A stretch of DNA of 23,166 nt from a virus, in the IMG/VR virus record IMGVR_UViG_3300048930_000244, positions 1-23,166 of that record. One strand, 5' to 3'. The translations under genes and the position numbers were made by a program. The notes below the pieces were generated by a model that saw only the letters and a list, made by a program, of their open reading frames with translations, made no database searches and was not told the DNA's origin. Numbering within the stretch: the stretch's first letter is position 1; the number at the start of each line of letters is the position of its first letter. This document shows positions 2,869 through 23,166 of the stretch, piece after piece.

Positions 2869-3036
2869 ATGCTCGGGGCAACCTGGACCCGCACCCTCGA
2901 CGGCGCCCTCGACCACATCAGCCAGCTCACCACCGAACGTGACAACGCGCTCGACGAGATCACCACATTCCTCCGCGAACACCCCGAACACGAGGATGAC
3001 GAACACCTCACCCTCGCCAGACTCGCACTCCTATGA
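2869..3036 (+). CDS. Small acidic hypothetical protein
   Basis: ATG 2869 has an excellent SD, AGGGAGGA, four bases upstream; the GTG at 2848 lies inside the hairpin and has none. The 55-residue product is almost entirely helical and acidic (LDGALDHISQLTTERDNALD, then EHPEHEDDEHLTLARLALL) and looks like a short coiled coil. It opens a four-gene coupled block that ends with the HNH gene; its stop overlaps the next ATG (ATGA). Similar short helical proteins are common in actinophages without known function. Confidence 0.65.
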   Translation: MLGATWTRTLDGALDHISQLTTERDNALDEITTFLREHPEHEDDEHLTLARLALL

Positions 3037-3152
3037 AGCCCCGCTTCTCATGGCTGTGCATCATCGGCTTCCACCGGTGGACGCACACGATCGGGCCGGG
3101 CGTGTTCGCTCAGGCGTGCGCACGATGCCACGAACCGAGGAGGCCACGGTGA
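3033..3152 (+). CDS. 39-residue hypothetical protein with CxxC-H motif
   Basis: ATG 3033 overlaps the previous stop (ATGA), and its own stop overlaps the next GTG (GTGA). The product begins MKPRFSWLCIIGFHRWTHT and ends with CARCHEPRRPR. One CxxC plus His could bind a metal, and the first half resembles the short LCxxGxHxW motif seen in small phage zinc proteins. Support comes mainly from precise coupling on both sides. Function unknown. Confidence 0.5.
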   Translation: MKPRFSWLCIIGFHRWTHTIGPGVFAQACARCHEPRRPR

Positions 3153-3268
3153 GCAGGCAGCACGAGTGTCCTGGCTGCGGTGAACTCGTCCCGTCGATCT
3201 GGGCGTCGATCGTGCATTGCGACCCTGTCGCGTACATCGACGACGACGACACCCGCGGATACGACTGA
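3149..3268 (+). CDS. 39-residue zinc-knuckle-like hypothetical protein
   Basis: GTG 3149 follows an AGGAGG-like stretch (GAGGAGGCC) and overlaps the previous stop (GTGA). The product starts SRQHECPGCGELVP, a CxxCG zinc-knuckle motif with a preceding His. A second Cys follows (SIVHCDP), then an acidic tail (YIDDDDTRGYD). The stop shares one base with the next start (TGATG). It may be a very small metal-binding protein. Coding status rests on coupling and motif. Confidence 0.5.
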   Translation: MSRQHECPGCGELVPSIWASIVHCDPVAYIDDDDTRGYD

Positions 3269-3573
3269 TGTCCGCCATCCATCACGACCCGCGGCAGGCT
3301 GCAGCGCTCACAGAGCTCCGCGCACGCGGCGAGATCCAGCCCTGCTGGTCCTGCGGCAAGGAACTGCGAGCCTCAGCCCGCAAGCCCCACCCGCAAGCCA
3401 TCACCGTCGGCCACTACGTCGACGTCGACCTTGGCCTCACCAACCCGTTCGACCCGTCCTCCTACGGCCCACAGTGCGCCACCTGCAACTCCGCAGGCGG
3501 CGCGAGGCGCACGAACGCCAAGCGCCGCGGCGAAACAGGCCGCGAACTCACCATCTCGCCCGATTGGCGCTGA
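3268..3573 (+). CDS. HNH endonuclease adjacent to terminase
   Basis: ATG 3268 overlaps the previous stop (TGATG). The 101-residue product has a zinc-finger pair C26-WS-C29-GKEL, a central strand ITVGHYVDVDLG with H49, and YGPQCATCN (C70, C73, N74). This is the CxxC...xHx...CxxCN layout of the small HNH proteins next to phage terminase genes. The usual DH pair before the helix reads GH, so the catalytic details differ. In HK97-like phages such HNH proteins work with the terminase in cos cleavage; that role is inferred here from position directly before terS. A terminator-like hairpin overlaps the stop codon. It could instead be a zinc-binding protein without nuclease activity. Confidence 0.72.
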   Translation: MSAIHHDPRQAAALTELRARGEIQPCWSCGKELRASARKPHPQAITVGHYVDVDLGLTNPFDPSSYGPQCATCNSAGGARRTNAKRRGETGRELTISPDWR

Positions 3574-3589
3574 GAGCGAGCCAGTTTTT
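3565..3589 (+). terminator. Intrinsic-terminator-like hairpin with T5 tract
   Basis: TGGCGCT (3565-3571) pairs with AGC..GCCA (3575-3583) around a GAG loop, with a two-base bulge (GA). It is followed one base later by TTTTT (3585-3589), rare in this GC-rich DNA. It overlaps the stop codon of the HNH gene and would separate it from terS. Confidence 0.5.
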
Positions 3590-3609
3590 AGGACCGGCCC
3601 ACCCCCCGA

Positions 3610-3637
3610 AAGACCGCGTGGTCTTCCATTTCTCTCT
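3610..3637 (+). terminator. Second hairpin before terS with pyrimidine tract
   Basis: AAGACC (3610-3615) and GGTCTT (3620-3625) form a perfect 6-bp stem with a GCGT tetraloop. A T/C-rich run (CCATTTCTCTCTC) follows. It lies 20 bases after the first hairpin and upstream of the terS SD. It could be a tandem terminator or part of a packaging (cos) site. Confidence 0.4.
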
Positions 3638-3656
3638 CTCCGACTGAGGAGGGCCG

Positions 3657-4187
3657 ATGTCGTCACGGCAGAAGCTGCCCCCTCACGGGACGCCCGAGCG
3701 GTACCGGCTCGAGCGCAAGGAGGGCAGCACGTGCGCGAAGTGCAGGGGCCGGATGGCCAGTCTCCGCAAGGAACAGCGGGCCAACGCGGCCGCCGCCACC
3801 GCCCGCTCGAAGATGCACATCGTCGAGCCGCCGGCAGACGACACGGTTAACGACACGAAGCCTGCGCGATCGACCTCGAGCCGCTCGTCGAGCAAGGCCC
3901 GCATCGTCGGCACGATGGAGGAGTCCGTCGAGGCTGACATCGCCGAGATCGACGAGAAGCTGCAGGTCCCCTTTCACCGATCCCTGAGTGTGCTCGCCAT
4001 CGAGCTCGCCCGCGAGATCGACGAGCCCGCCACTACCGCCACCGCTCGTCGCGACGCCCGCAAGCAGCTCTTCGAAGTGCTCAGGTCACTGCGCACGCAG
4101 AAGGAGGGCGACGATGGCACGGCGCTCACGGTCCTCCTCGAGCAAGCAGGCTTTGGGACTCCCCTCGTACCTGGACGTCGCTCCTAG
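3657..4187 (+). CDS. terS: Terminase small subunit
   Basis: ATG 3657 follows GAGGAGGG by a few bases and gives a 176-residue basic protein. It ends inside the terminase large subunit gene, the usual position of TerS, which recognises the packaging site and recruits TerL to DNA. Residues 10-32 carry an HGTPERY...C26-AKC29-R motif (HGTxxRY-CxxCR) that I recall from small actinobacterial phage proteins; its cysteine pair may be structural. A Ser/Arg-rich linker (~65-85) follows. The helical part VEADIAEIDEKLQ...RSLSVLAIELAREID then fits a TerS oligomerisation core with D-A-R-K-Q-L-FE near its end. The identification leans on position plus helical, basic character; sequence similarity alone is modest. 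Confidence 0.75.
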   Translation: MSSRQKLPPHGTPERYRLERKEGSTCAKCRGRMASLRKEQRANAAAATARSKMHIVEPPADDTVNDTKPARSTSSRSSSKARIVGTMEESVEADIAEIDEKLQVPFHRSLSVLAIELAREIDEPATTATARRDARKQLFEVLRSLRTQKEGDDGTALTVLLEQAGFGTPLVPGRRS

Positions 4188-18086: not shown

Positions 18087-18746
18087 ATGGCACGCGACTC
18101 GTCCGGCACAAAGAACCAACCCCAGTACCTCGGCACCGGGGCGCCCGCAACAGCGGCCGATAAGAACGAGATCGCGAACTACGCCGCCGACGTCGGCAAC
18201 CGCAAGGTCAAGACCGCCGCGGAACGGGCCGCGCTCTCCGGCGCGGACGTGTGGGACGGGCTCGAGGTGTTCGAGTCCGACACCGGCCGCGCCTACCTCC
18301 GCATCAGCGGCGGGTGGAAGCGCACCGCCGACAAGTTGTCGCTGTGCGTGGTGGAGAAGGACATCGCGCAGAACACCAGCGCCGGCACCGTCACGGTGAC
18401 GTGGAACAGCACGGGCGCGGCGATCGACACGGACTCGTACTACTCGACGGGCACGAACACTCGGGTGACGGTCCCGTTCACCGGGATCTACGAGGTCACC
18501 TACAAGGCACGCATCGCGTCGACGCAGGCGCTGACCAGTGATCTGAAGATCAACGGCGTCTCAGCGCCGAGGGGCGCGTCGTCTGATGTCGGCGCGTCCG
18601 GCGCGGCGTCGTGTGTCGCTGCGACCGTGCTGCTCTCGCTCGCCGCAGGCGACTACCTCACGCTCGACATCACCGCGACGGGCGCGTCAGCGCTGGCAAC
18701 GACGGGCGGAACGTTCATGTCCGCGGAGTACCTGGGCCAAGTCTGA
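18087..18746 (+). CDS. C1q/TNF-like minor tail protein, likely receptor-binding
   Basis: ATG 18087 has AGGAGC upstream. The 219-residue product has an N-terminal part (DSSGTKNQPQYLGTGAPATA through KTAAERAALSGADVWDGLEV, FESDTGRAYLRISGGW) that looks like a tail-attachment segment. A C-terminal ~110-residue beta sandwich follows: VTVTWNSTGAAIDTDSYYS, TRVTVPFTGIYEVTYKARI, CVAATVLLSLAAGDYLTLDI, GTFMSAEYLG. The VTVPFTGIYEVTYKARI and GDYLTLDI...FMSAEYL pieces are characteristic of C1q-like jelly rolls, which trimerise at phage tail tips and bind host glycans or proteins. It sits last in the first tail cluster, directly before endolysin. The stop shares a base with the endolysin ATG. Confidence 0.75.
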   Translation: MARDSSGTKNQPQYLGTGAPATAADKNEIANYAADVGNRKVKTAAERAALSGADVWDGLEVFESDTGRAYLRISGGWKRTADKLSLCVVEKDIAQNTSAGTVTVTWNSTGAAIDTDSYYSTGTNTRVTVPFTGIYEVTYKARIASTQALTSDLKINGVSAPRGASSDVGASGAASCVAATVLLSLAAGDYLTLDITATGASALATTGGTFMSAEYLGQV

Positions 18747-19489
18747 TGTCCGGCTATCTCCGCCCCGTTGGCGACGTGTACGTCCCCTCGGACTGGCAGG
18801 ACCACCGGGACCGCACACCTCCGTCGACGGAGCCGGGCACAGACTACGCCGTCCCGGTCGGCACGGAGGTGCTGGCGCCGGCGGAAGGGTTCGTCGTCGG
18901 GGTGAAGCCGTCGAACACCCGCCCGTCCGGGCGGGCCCTGATGCTCAACACGTCCGGGGACTACCACCGGGCACTGCACCTGCAGTCGCTGTCGGTGGTG
19001 TTCGGGCAGCGGTTCCGTCGCGGTCAGCGCCTCGGGATCTCGGGGGCGTCGGCGAACGGGTCCGATCACGGTGTCGGCGCGCATCTGCACTGGTCGTTCT
19101 GGCGTCAGCCGGGATTCGTTCCCACACCGGGCGTGACCCCGACCAACGACTTCGAGCTGTACGTGCAGGGGGACGCTCCTGCAGGCGGGGGCGGAGAGGT
19201 TCCGTTCCCGCTCCCAGACAACTCATTGGAGGAGTTCGACATGGATCAGACGCGAGTGATCTTCGATGAGAAAGGCAGACGGTGGGCGCTGGTCGGCGCG
19301 ACCGTCCCACCACTCGGGACCTCGAAGCCGGGCGCGTGGATCACCCGTGACGGGCTCGTCGCGAACGGGTGGGCTGTAGTGCACGGCAACGGTGTGCCGC
19401 GCACCCCGGAGCAGTTCGACGTCGACGTGCGCGAGCACCAGAAGCTCGCCGCGGCGTGGGTGAGCCAGCAGAAGGCGATCCACGCCTGA
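18746..19489 (+). CDS. Endolysin, M23-like peptidase plus C-terminal domain
   Basis: ATG 18746 overlaps the previous stop (TGATG). Residues ~15-120 of the 247-residue product form an M23/lysostaphin-type domain: PGTDYAVPVGTEVLAPAEG (D33 zinc-ligand candidate), YHRALHLQS (H78) and GVGAHLHWSF with H113/H115. The standard HxGxD first His is missing (EPGTD); H20 in DWQDHRDRTPP, conserved from memory in actinophage relatives, may substitute as ligand. The domain cuts peptide cross-links in peptidoglycan. A linker rich in Gly/Pro (~142-160) leads to a C-terminal ~80-residue domain, probably wall binding (TRVIFDEKGRRWALVGATVP...GLVANGWAVVHGNGV). An SD plus in-frame ATG at 19241 may also make this domain alone. 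Firm as endolysin. Confidence 0.88.
   Translation: MSGYLRPVGDVYVPSDWQDHRDRTPPSTEPGTDYAVPVGTEVLAPAEGFVVGVKPSNTRPSGRALMLNTSGDYHRALHLQSLSVVFGQRFRRGQRLGISGASANGSDHGVGAHLHWSFWRQPGFVPTPGVTPTNDFELYVQGDAPAGGGGEVPFPLPDNSLEEFDMDQTRVIFDEKGRRWALVGATVPPLGTSKPGAWITRDGLVANGWAVVHGNGVPRTPEQFDVDVREHQKLAAAWVSQQKAIHA
19228..19489 (+). CDS. Candidate internal translation start within endolysin (C-terminal domain alone)
   Basis: GGAGGAG (19228-19234) lies six bases before an in-frame ATG at 19241, exactly at the linker/C-terminal domain boundary (residue 166). The alternative product, 19241-19489, would be about 82 residues and consist only of the C-terminal domain. The interval annotated here begins at the SD. 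Several endolysins (for example clostridial CTP1L and enterococcal LysIME-EF1) make such a binding-domain product from an internal start and assemble it with full-length enzyme. Such a strong SD inside a coding region at a domain border is unlikely to be chance, although Glu-Glu-Phe codons explain part of it. Confidence 0.5.
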
Positions 19490-19860
19490 TGACTCCCGTG
19501 TTCGAGCCCTGGATGGTCAACGTCCTCATCGCGGCGATCGCAGCATCCGGGGGTTTCTTCGCCGCGTACGCAGCCCTGCGGAAGTCGCAGCGCGACGACA
19601 GGCAGTTGCTCATCGACCAGATACAGGAGGAACGGAACTGGCAGGCGGCTGAACGGCGCAAGGAGCGCGAGGAGTTCGCCGCTGAGCTGCTGAAGGAACG
19701 TGAGCAGATCGCCGCTGAGCGTGCCGCCGCTGAGATCGCCGCGGACAGGTACTGGTCCGACAAGGCGAAGTCTCGTGAGTACGTGGCGATGCTCCGCGCA
19801 CACATCAACAACCGTCAGCCGCCGCCTCCGCCTCACGCGCCGGCGGGCTACCTCGAGTAG
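19489..19860 (+). CDS. Membrane-anchored coiled-coil protein of lysis cassette
   Basis: ATG 19489 overlaps the endolysin stop (TGATGA). The 123-residue product has one hydrophobic segment near residues 9-29 (MVNVLIAAIAASGGFFAAYA), preceded by a short N-terminus. A long, highly charged helical region follows (~30-105: QRDDRQLLIDQIQEERNWQ, ERRKEREEFAAELLKEREQI). A PPPPP stretch near 110 precedes the C-terminus. This topology (one N-terminal TM, then coiled coil and Pro tail) resembles membrane proteins found beside holins in actinophages and is spanin-like in outline. No spanin lipobox is visible. It is coupled to the endolysin and holin genes, so a lysis-timing or helper role is likely but unproven. 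Confidence 0.7.
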   Translation: MTPVFEPWMVNVLIAAIAASGGFFAAYAALRKSQRDDRQLLIDQIQEERNWQAAERRKEREEFAAELLKEREQIAAERAAAEIAADRYWSDKAKSREYVAMLRAHINNRQPPPPPHAPAGYLE

Positions 19861-19868
19861 GAGAACCC

Positions 19869-20081
19869 ATGAGCAAGTACGCGAACAAGCAGTTCTGGAT
19901 CGACACCGTCGACCGGGCGGTCGCGACGGTCGCGCAGACCGCGGTCGCGACGCTCACCGCCGGAGTGACGGGCATCCTGCAGATCGACTGGGCGCAGGTC
20001 GCGTCGGTCGCCGGGCTCGCGGGCGCCGTGTCGGTGCTGACCTCTGTCGCATTCCGCGGCAACGACAAGAAGGAGATCTGA
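19869..20081 (+). CDS. Holin, r1t-like
   Basis: ATG 19869 follows TAGGAG. The 70-residue product starts KYANKQFWIDTVDRAVATVA, then has a hydrophobic Ala/Val/Thr-rich run (QTAVATLTAGVTGILQ), the IDWAQVASVAGLAGAVSVLT segment with a second membrane helix, and a charged tail (SVAFRGNDKKEI). This is the recognisable pattern of r1t-like holins (Phage_r1t_holin, PF16945): FW...R...AQT...DW..V......A....LTS. It would form membrane lesions that let the M23 endolysin reach the wall and set lysis time. The gene sits one base before the next start, closing the lysis cassette. Confidence 0.85.
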   Translation: MSKYANKQFWIDTVDRAVATVAQTAVATLTAGVTGILQIDWAQVASVAGLAGAVSVLTSVAFRGNDKKEI

Positions 20082-21606: not shown

Positions 21607-23166
21607 GTGGTCTCCTACGTCGCCAAAGGCACCAACGCGCTCGGCACCACATCCTGCGCACCCGGCTACCCAGCGGGACTCTCGGCGAACGACCTGATCC
21701 TCTGCGCAGTCCAAGCCCGTGAGGCGGCATCAGCCGTCGCGACAATGCCCGCCGGGTGGACGCTGCTCGCCGAGGTCGCCGGTACGTTCGGCACGGTCGG
21801 CGTCGACACAGGCCCGACGCGGATGTGGTGGTTCACCAAGGACACCGTATCCGGCTCCGAATCAGGGACGGTCACGGTCACCGTGACCAGCGGCACCGTC
21901 TGCATCGCGGCAATGTTCGCGTTCCAGTCGGCGACGGGCGCATTCGACATCGCCTGGGCATCCGGCGAGGACACATCCGCCGGCACCACCATCAGCGCCG
22001 TGTGTTCCCCGGACGGCGGGCTCGGCGCCGGGTGGATCGCCGCGGGCGACTTCCTGTTCGGTCACATCGGCAAGCCGACCGACGCGGGTACCTGTAGCGC
22101 ACAGAACTTCGCGTCCACGGGGTTGACTATCGGCGCTCGCACCGAGGTCTGGGAGTACTCCTCCACCAACGGCAACGACCTCGAGTCGACGGCCTACTGG
22201 GCGGATGTGTCGTCCGGCACCCAGTCGGTGTCGACGGTCACCGCATCCGCATCGGTCGGAACGTCAACCTACGGGCCAGCCCTCGTGCTCCGCCTCCGCG
22301 ACGCCGCGGCCGGTGACGTCACATTCACGACCCTCGTCGGCGACGCGACCGCAGACGGCGGCAGTACCGCCTTCACCGCAGACGCGACCTTCACCACGTC
22401 GACCGGCGCCGCGACCGCTGACGGCGCCGTCACATCGTTCACCGCAGATGCCGTGTTCGCCACGACGGCCGCCGACGCGACCGCGGATGGCTCGACGGCA
22501 TCGTTCACCGCGGACGCAGTCTTCGCCACCAGCGAAGGCGCCGCGACCGCGGACGGTGGCACGAGCTCGTTCACCACCAGCTCCGGGGTCACGTTCGCCA
22601 CCCTCCCCGGTGAGGCAACAGCAGACGGCGGCACGGGCACGTTCCGCGCTGATGCGACGTTCGCGACCACCGCCGGCGGCGCCACAGCTGACGGCACCGT
22701 TACGACGTTCACCGCGGCCGCGACGTTCACTACGACCGCAGCCGAAGCGACCGCCGACGGCGGGCAGGCGGCGTTCACCGCGTCAGCCACCTTCACCACC
22801 ACGGAAGGCGCGGCCACCGCAGACGGCGGGACAGGCACGTTCACCGGCGCCGCACTGTTCACCACCACCGTCGGCGACGCGACCGCGGACGGCGGCGAGG
22901 GGACGTTCCGCGCTGACGGACTGTTCGCGTCGCTCGTCGGCGTCGCGCTCGCCGACGGCGGGACGGGCACGTTCACGATTGCTCCGACGCTCGCACGGGT
23001 CCCGAAGGTCGTTGAGACGGTCGGAGGTGCTGAACAGTCCCGCACGATCCGGCCCGGCCCGGCGCCCAGCGCCACGCTCGCGGCCGATCCGGGCGCGGCG
23101 ATCCTCTGGGCCCATACCGCCCATGAAACCCTCTCAGGCGTTCCCGCGCCGCGCCGCACCCTCTGA
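21607..23166 (+). CDS. Tail/fibre-like protein with tandem 22-residue repeats
   Basis: GTG 21607 follows ACGGAGG at good distance; the stop TGA is the last triplet of the window. The 519-residue product has three zones. Residues ~1-235 form a beta-rich, Gly/Ser/Thr-containing domain (PAGLSANDLILCAVQARE, MPAGWTLLAEVAG, VWEYSSTNGNDLESTAYW, YGPALVLRLRD), a fold type common in phage tail proteins. Residues 240-461 are ten copies of a 22-residue repeat (the fourth is 24). Residues ~462-519 are a Pro/Arg/Ala-rich tail. The repeats suggest a beta-strand stalk or solenoid fibre. It follows a glycosidase-like gene and may be exposed on the virion. Function otherwise unknown. Confidence 0.78.
   Translation: MVSYVAKGTNALGTTSCAPGYPAGLSANDLILCAVQAREAASAVATMPAGWTLLAEVAGTFGTVGVDTGPTRMWWFTKDTVSGSESGTVTVTVTSGTVCIAAMFAFQSATGAFDIAWASGEDTSAGTTISAVCSPDGGLGAGWIAAGDFLFGHIGKPTDAGTCSAQNFASTGLTIGARTEVWEYSSTNGNDLESTAYWADVSSGTQSVSTVTASASVGTSTYGPALVLRLRDAAAGDVTFTTLVGDATADGGSTAFTADATFTTSTGAATADGAVTSFTADAVFATTAADATADGSTASFTADAVFATSEGAATADGGTSSFTTSSGVTFATLPGEATADGGTGTFRADATFATTAGGATADGTVTTFTAAATFTTTAAEATADGGQAAFTASATFTTTEGAATADGGTGTFTGAALFTTTVGDATADGGEGTFRADGLFASLVGVALADGGTGTFTIAPTLARVPKVVETVGGAEQSRTIRPGPAPSATLAADPGAAILWAHTAHETLSGVPAPRRTL
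22324..22989 (+). repeat. Ten tandem 66-bp repeats encoding a 22-residue unit
   Basis: The unit is F-(T/A)-T-x-x-x-x-A-T-A-D-G-x-x-x-x-F-x-A-D-A-x; nine units are 66 bp and the fourth is 72 bp. ATADG occurs in nine and ALADG in the last. At the DNA level the core gcgaccgc(a/g)gacgg is well kept while the rest differs between units, showing old, diverged duplication. The alternating small/aromatic pattern is typical of beta strands. Confidence 0.9.

Follow-up and report, generated by a model that had tools for sequence, protein, structure and literature searches.

Does the endolysin gene of an actinophage encode one lytic enzyme, or does a ribosome-binding signal inside its coding sequence direct the synthesis of a second, shorter product? 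The question is raised by a stretch of 23,166 bases from an IMG/VR virus record, the whole of which is referred to here as the window. Its endolysin (computed pI, 6.1) is recognizable as the M23 enzyme of a lysis cassette by its match to PF01551, by the accompanying PF16945 holin, and by relatives that are annotated as lysin A. The r1t-type holin, encoded by the second gene downstream of the endolysin gene, supports the lysis role of the cassette; the product of the gene directly after the endolysin gene has weak similarity to Rz-like spanin and hol-like families (Table 1). The M23 domain is 37 to 47% identical to those of annotated lysin A/endolysin proteins of Microbacterium phages, which makes Microbacterium or a close relative very likely the host. 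At its 5' end, the endolysin gene has a TGATG overlap with the stop codon of the upstream tail-region gene, and its own start is preceded by a weak Shine-Dalgarno (SD) sequence (-2.5 kcal/mol). That upstream gene (18087 to 18746) codes for a protein whose C-terminal domain is BclA_C/C1q-like, by a match (E = 2.3e-8) that falls narrowly short of the Pfam cut-off. Near the other end of the window, the last long ORF codes for a repetitive Ala/Thr/Asp/Gly-rich protein and contains about eight copies of a degenerate 66-bp tandem repeat (22338 to 22976).

Table 1. Features of the endolysin gene and the adjoining lysis genes (coordinates are those of the window)
Feature	Coordinates	Strand	Basis or remark
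Endolysin gene, full-length product (247 aa, 26.7 kDa)	18746..19489	+	ORF and translation
Peptidase M23 catalytic domain, residues 29-121	18830..19108	+	Pfam PF01551, E = 2.2e-13
Remaining catalytic region plus Gly/Pro-rich linker (final residues SLEEFD), with the internal SD	19109..19240	+	
Internal Shine-Dalgarno sequence GGAGGAG	19228..19234	+	Anti-SD pairing -9.3 kcal/mol; equivalent site in relatives
Internal ATG start, coding for Met166 of the full-length enzyme and for the first residue of the predicted short product	19241..19243	+	In frame
Predicted short product, C-terminal module (82 aa, 9.0 kDa [8,997 Da], pI 9.5)	19241..19489	+	Putative wall-binding subunit
Downstream lysis-cassette gene, one apparent N-terminal hydrophobic stretch	19489..19860	+	PHROGs, E about 1e-4
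Holin, r1t type	19869..20081	+	Pfam PF16945, E = 6e-21

A sequence-only reading of the window had pointed to a GGAGGAG motif followed six bases later by an in-frame ATG where the linker ends and the C-terminal module begins. The arrangement is present as described (19220 to 19249, aactcattGGAGGAGttcgacATGgatcag), with TTCGAC as the spacer and Met166 directly after the Gly/Pro-rich linker. Of the 54 in-frame ATGs that lie inside genes of the window, this one has the best SD, in a comparison for which a few of the gene starts are approximate. The local mRNA fold around the start codon (-15.9 kcal/mol, compared with -22.9 on average for the gene) falls within the weakest 8% of the gene; most of the SD itself is predicted to be base-paired locally, with a mean unpaired probability of 0.16. 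Taken alone, the site is suggestive only. When the codons of the endolysin gene are shuffled, an equally strong SD with an ATG arises anywhere in the gene with P = 0.11 and in the linker with P = 0.017, and a synonymous-codon test confined to this site gives no significant result (P about 0.48) because Glu-Glu is usually encoded as GAGGAG here. The pattern GGAGG-N4-10-ATG is also not very rare, with nine matches in the window against 4.3 expected. Since the shuffle and synonymous results are modest, the case rests on conservation across relatives rather than on the single site.

We found only two relatives of the 82-aa C-module, in the lysins L003 (42% identity) and L009 (39%), and both possess the signal at the same residue as Met166, as GAGGAG-N9-ATG in L003 and AAGGAG-N9-ATG in L009 (border sequences ctcGAGGAGttgacggatATGgataag and ctcAAGGAGttggaagacATGgataag, respectively). 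Their N-terminal parts have no Pfam match, M23 included, and by eye appear to carry M15-like motifs. The C-module is a separate unit, present also behind N-terminal domains unlike M23. Searches with the short product against annotated phages retrieved nothing at E 0.01 and chance-level matches only at E 10. Neither two scans of genome contigs nor a P0001 query against viral contigs recovered relatives, and a degenerate SD/ATG DNA pattern gave 61 scattered matches in viral contigs, among which we noticed the contig of L009 and no other known lysin contig.

The border signal itself extends beyond this module to most related actinophage lysins whose short C-modules belong to other families. A scan with an M23 alignment yielded the lysins L011 to L039, and most of those with short C-modules display a strong SD and an in-frame ATG or GTG at the end of the linker (strong in L011, L012, L016, L023, L024, L025, L028, L029, and L034 to L038; weaker in L030 to L032). 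The BlueRugrat/Burro/Wesak-type lysins, with long C termini, are without it. Homology of the C-terminal modules recovered further lysins from Isperia, Wyvern, Cinna, Damascus, Ixel, and ISF9, as well as L111 and L113 to L117, whose catalytic domains include M23, amidase_2, and VanY-like versions. Across 29 non-redundant lysins, the border start codon is ATG in 27 and GTG in 2 (L011 and L023), and in 24 its SD outranks that of every other internal in-frame start, where 3.1 would be expected. These border SDs average -9.1 kcal/mol, with 83% at -7 kcal/mol or better, against -8.4 and 77% for true gene starts, and they exceed in strength what synonymous recoding produces (z = -2.9); lysins with a weak or poorly spaced SD are L114 (-4.4), ISF9 (-5.6), L117 (-6.4), and L030. 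Near the border, SD-bearing starts account for 26 of 72 in frame versus 5 of 70 out of frame (P = 2e-5). In the M23 set (L011 to L038), the border was chosen by visual inspection while the SD could be seen, and this tilts the counts from that set towards the claim. The subset of 14 selected by module homology is cleaner but small, with a mild bias from some queries that included the Met: all 14 have an ATG at the first residue of the module, and 11 have an SD of -7 or better, as opposed to 11 of 143 internal ATGs (7.7%) in 61 control genes, a difference with a binomial P of about 2e-10 if the lysins are treated as independent, which phage lysins are not. The sequence-only reading had asked whether the SD/ATG pair is conserved among homologs, and its proposal of internal initiation is well supported, because the pair is kept in both C-module relatives and at the same border in most of the related lysins.

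Two of these lysins have further peculiarities. The predicted internal product of L011 (3409 to 3792), which begins at a GTG, terminates in an apparent transmembrane helix; such a short form would be a membrane protein, with a possible role in the control of lysis. Ixel gp23 (L101, 2003 to 2959), an M23 lysin annotated only as a hypothetical protein, has a second strong internal SD-ATG (residue 278, -11.4 kcal/mol) in its tail region, downstream of the border site.

On the basis of these patterns, we propose, with a probability of roughly 0.75, that the gene has a functional internal translation start and yields both the full enzyme and a C-terminal subunit, making it a "type II iTSS" endolysin; actual initiation at ATG 19241 in the host appears equally probable. 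The gene has the layout of that class, in that a single gene encodes an N-terminal peptidoglycan-cutting domain and a separate C-terminal module, with a conserved in-frame internal start and its ribosome-binding site between them. A type I assignment does not fit, in that the short product matches no catalytic family in Pfam or PHROGs. The gene would thus comprise two nested in-frame reading frames with a common stop codon. Ribosomes starting at 18746, probably coupled to the upstream gene via the TGATG overlap, would produce the M23 enzyme, and GGAGGAG would recruit ribosomes directly for the synthesis of the C-terminal module, whose much stronger SD probably makes it at least as abundant as the full enzyme. 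By analogy with characterized endolysins, we regard it as likely that the free module binds the wall in the manner of the enzyme's C terminus; it would also join the full-length chain in an assembly of one catalytic domain and several binding modules; for such a hetero-oligomer we see about even odds.

It is conceivable that the internal start is used but that the free module acts alone, for instance, by competing for wall sites or by influencing the timing of lysis. The isoforms of LysJavan488 did not interact (PMC9430671), those of Ms6 affect the timing and completeness of lysis (PMC3111421), and the contrast between the pI values of the short product and the whole enzyme does not require assembly. 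We nevertheless consider a lone module unlikely, since in the published type II cases for which interaction was tested and reported, the C-terminal product joins the full-length chain (PMC9430671, PMC12203907).

More improbable is that the signal is an unused by-product of an Asp/Glu-rich linker kept, together with its final Asp-Met, for protein reasons, with GC-rich codon usage turning Glu-Glu into GAGGAG. Many relatives indeed read EEDDM or EEEEDDM at this point, and in most of them the SD is no better than synonymous recoding, a test that is weak on its own, as most of these genes encode Glu predominantly by GAG. However, the linker residues vary (LEEFD, LEELTD, LKELED, LEDE, EGET, LGEFE, LGDN, IGDT, QEAGN, and LKGKK), and a purine-rich SD is kept despite this variation, with its GGAG core in different codon phases. 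It persists even in linkers that have no acidic run, namely, CAGGAGGCAGGAAACATG (L034), TTAGGAGAGTTCGAAATG (L115), CTAGGAGATAACATG (L116), and GGAGACACCATG (L117). An acidic linker also leaves unexplained the start codon at the same point, its replacement by GTG, and the loss of the signal in extra module copies: neither the second copies of one module type in ISF9 and L037 nor the membrane-anchored copy of another type in MementoMori gp79 has an SD-start at the equivalent place. As linkers vary, SD phases differ, GTG is used, and extra copies are without the signal, we favor selection on the start signal rather than on the linker.

Least probable is a scar of the in-frame fusion of a formerly separate downstream gene, which would have left an unused SD/ATG: in L019 a small module-like ORF (62 aa) does form a gene of its own, which immediately follows the M23 gene and overlaps it at TAATG, and gene fusion has been raised as a possible origin (PMC12203907), but a dead signal should decay, and yet this one is kept in modules only 39 to 46% identical and beside different catalytic domains. 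Fusion may still be the origin of the arrangement, which is compatible with present use of the signal.

The module family of the window's enzyme is not represented in Pfam or PHROGs and lacks a convincing counterpart in the PDB; its AlphaFold model, built from three sequences, is poor (pLDDT 56) and gave no signal with Foldseek. Family and fold comparisons thus returned nothing in favor of wall binding by the module. The model of the type B module is better (pLDDT 76) and again has no PDB match, its only good match being MementoMori gp79. With the first strand at residues 5 to 12 in type B and at residues 3 to 8 in the poorer model of the 82-aa module, a start at the Met appears to remove no part of the module fold. 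Profile comparison detected no mutual homology among module types A, B, and C, and a single superfamily of C-modules is accordingly not claimed. MementoMori gp79 (L119, 15963 to 16361) has 132 aa, with an apparent membrane helix at the N terminus and, behind it, a type B lysin C-module that is 35% identical to the C terminus of the phage's own endolysin; its gene lies far from the lysis genes, and the protein is possibly a membrane- or wall-tethered version of the module. In L019, the M23 lysin gene and the separate 62-aa gene occupy 3001 to 3793, and the same M23 gene begins again at the contig end, as either a tandem repeat or an assembly artefact; the 62-aa ORF is weakly similar to the L032 C-module (28%, E = 1e-4). 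Together, the separate cistron of L019 and gp79 indicate that modules can live outside the enzyme chain.

More broadly, M23, amidase_2, VanY-like, and other catalytic domains and several C-module families without detectable mutual homology meet at an SD and start codon. We tentatively suggest, at slightly less than even odds, that in phages of Microbacterium and its relatives, the border signal is a conserved element that survives exchange of the domains on either side of it, with the two-polypeptide layout being ancestral and a constraint on module shuffling. If true, this would help explain the frequency of such starts in endolysins and suggest a rule for the recombination of lysin modules. 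There is also a practical side: annotation treats each of the lysins considered here as one protein, and an enzyme produced recombinantly without the short subunit could lose some or all of its activity, as shown for LysP7951. Damascus, Cinna, Wyvern, Isperia, and Ixel are cultured Microbacterium phages and offer direct tests of a two-subunit actinophage endolysin.

Internal starts are well represented in the published record. A screen of 3,780 endolysins predicted them in about half, versus 15% of portal genes, and four were confirmed by expression, one of these from the mycobacteriophage Pollywog (PMC9430671). The type I and type II iTSS classes were defined in PMC12203907, with the M23-containing staphylococcal Ply2638A placed in type I. 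The sequence-only reading had regarded internal starts as known in a few endolysins and as poorly documented for actinophage M23 enzymes. The former view is too strong, given the predictions for about half of Gram-positive phage endolysins (PMC9430671), Ms6 LysA (PMC3111421), and Ply2638A (PMC12203907). The latter stands to the extent that we found no description of a type II site in an M23 enzyme from an actinophage, and no paper on internal starts in Microbacterium phage lysins, in the literature searched, although the survey of PMC9430671 may include such phages.

Among actinophages, the internal start of Ms6 LysA (Lysin384/Lysin241) has been proven since 2011, in infection; like the window gene, it is in frame and has an SD (TGGAGGT) six bases upstream (PMC3111421). 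Proven actinophage cases such as Ms6 (PMC3111421) and Pollywog (PMC9430671) are of type I, and the GTG-started short form of Ms6 LysA keeps the amidase domain, whereas the predicted short form in the window is without a catalytic domain. Ply2638A shares with the window gene an N-terminal M23 domain and an internal start (PMC12203907) but is not from an actinophage and, as a type I enzyme, has a short form with amidase and SH3b domains. Related M23 domains are found in most of the Microbacterium phage lysins of BlueRugrat, Lifes, Wyvern, Cinna, Damascus, and Ixel, all of which are annotated as single proteins and have C-modules of families other than that of the window; those of Lifes, Wyvern, Cinna, Ixel, and Damascus (the last with a VanY-like catalytic domain) have a border SD and ATG like the window gene. 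The type II endolysins Lys170, LysIME-EF1, CTP1L, CD27L, CS74L, and LysP7951 likewise consist of one catalytic domain followed by a C-module, with an SD and start at the border; they come from enterococcal, clostridial, and streptococcal phages, and their short products and stoichiometries are proven (PMC9430671 and PMC12203907). The window gene differs from them in its M23 catalysis, its unclassified C-module, its actinophage origin, and a short product that is predicted from the sequence. The two-product endolysin design is thus already known, and the window gene is a predicted type II member of it that would combine this design with an M23 enzyme in an actinophage.
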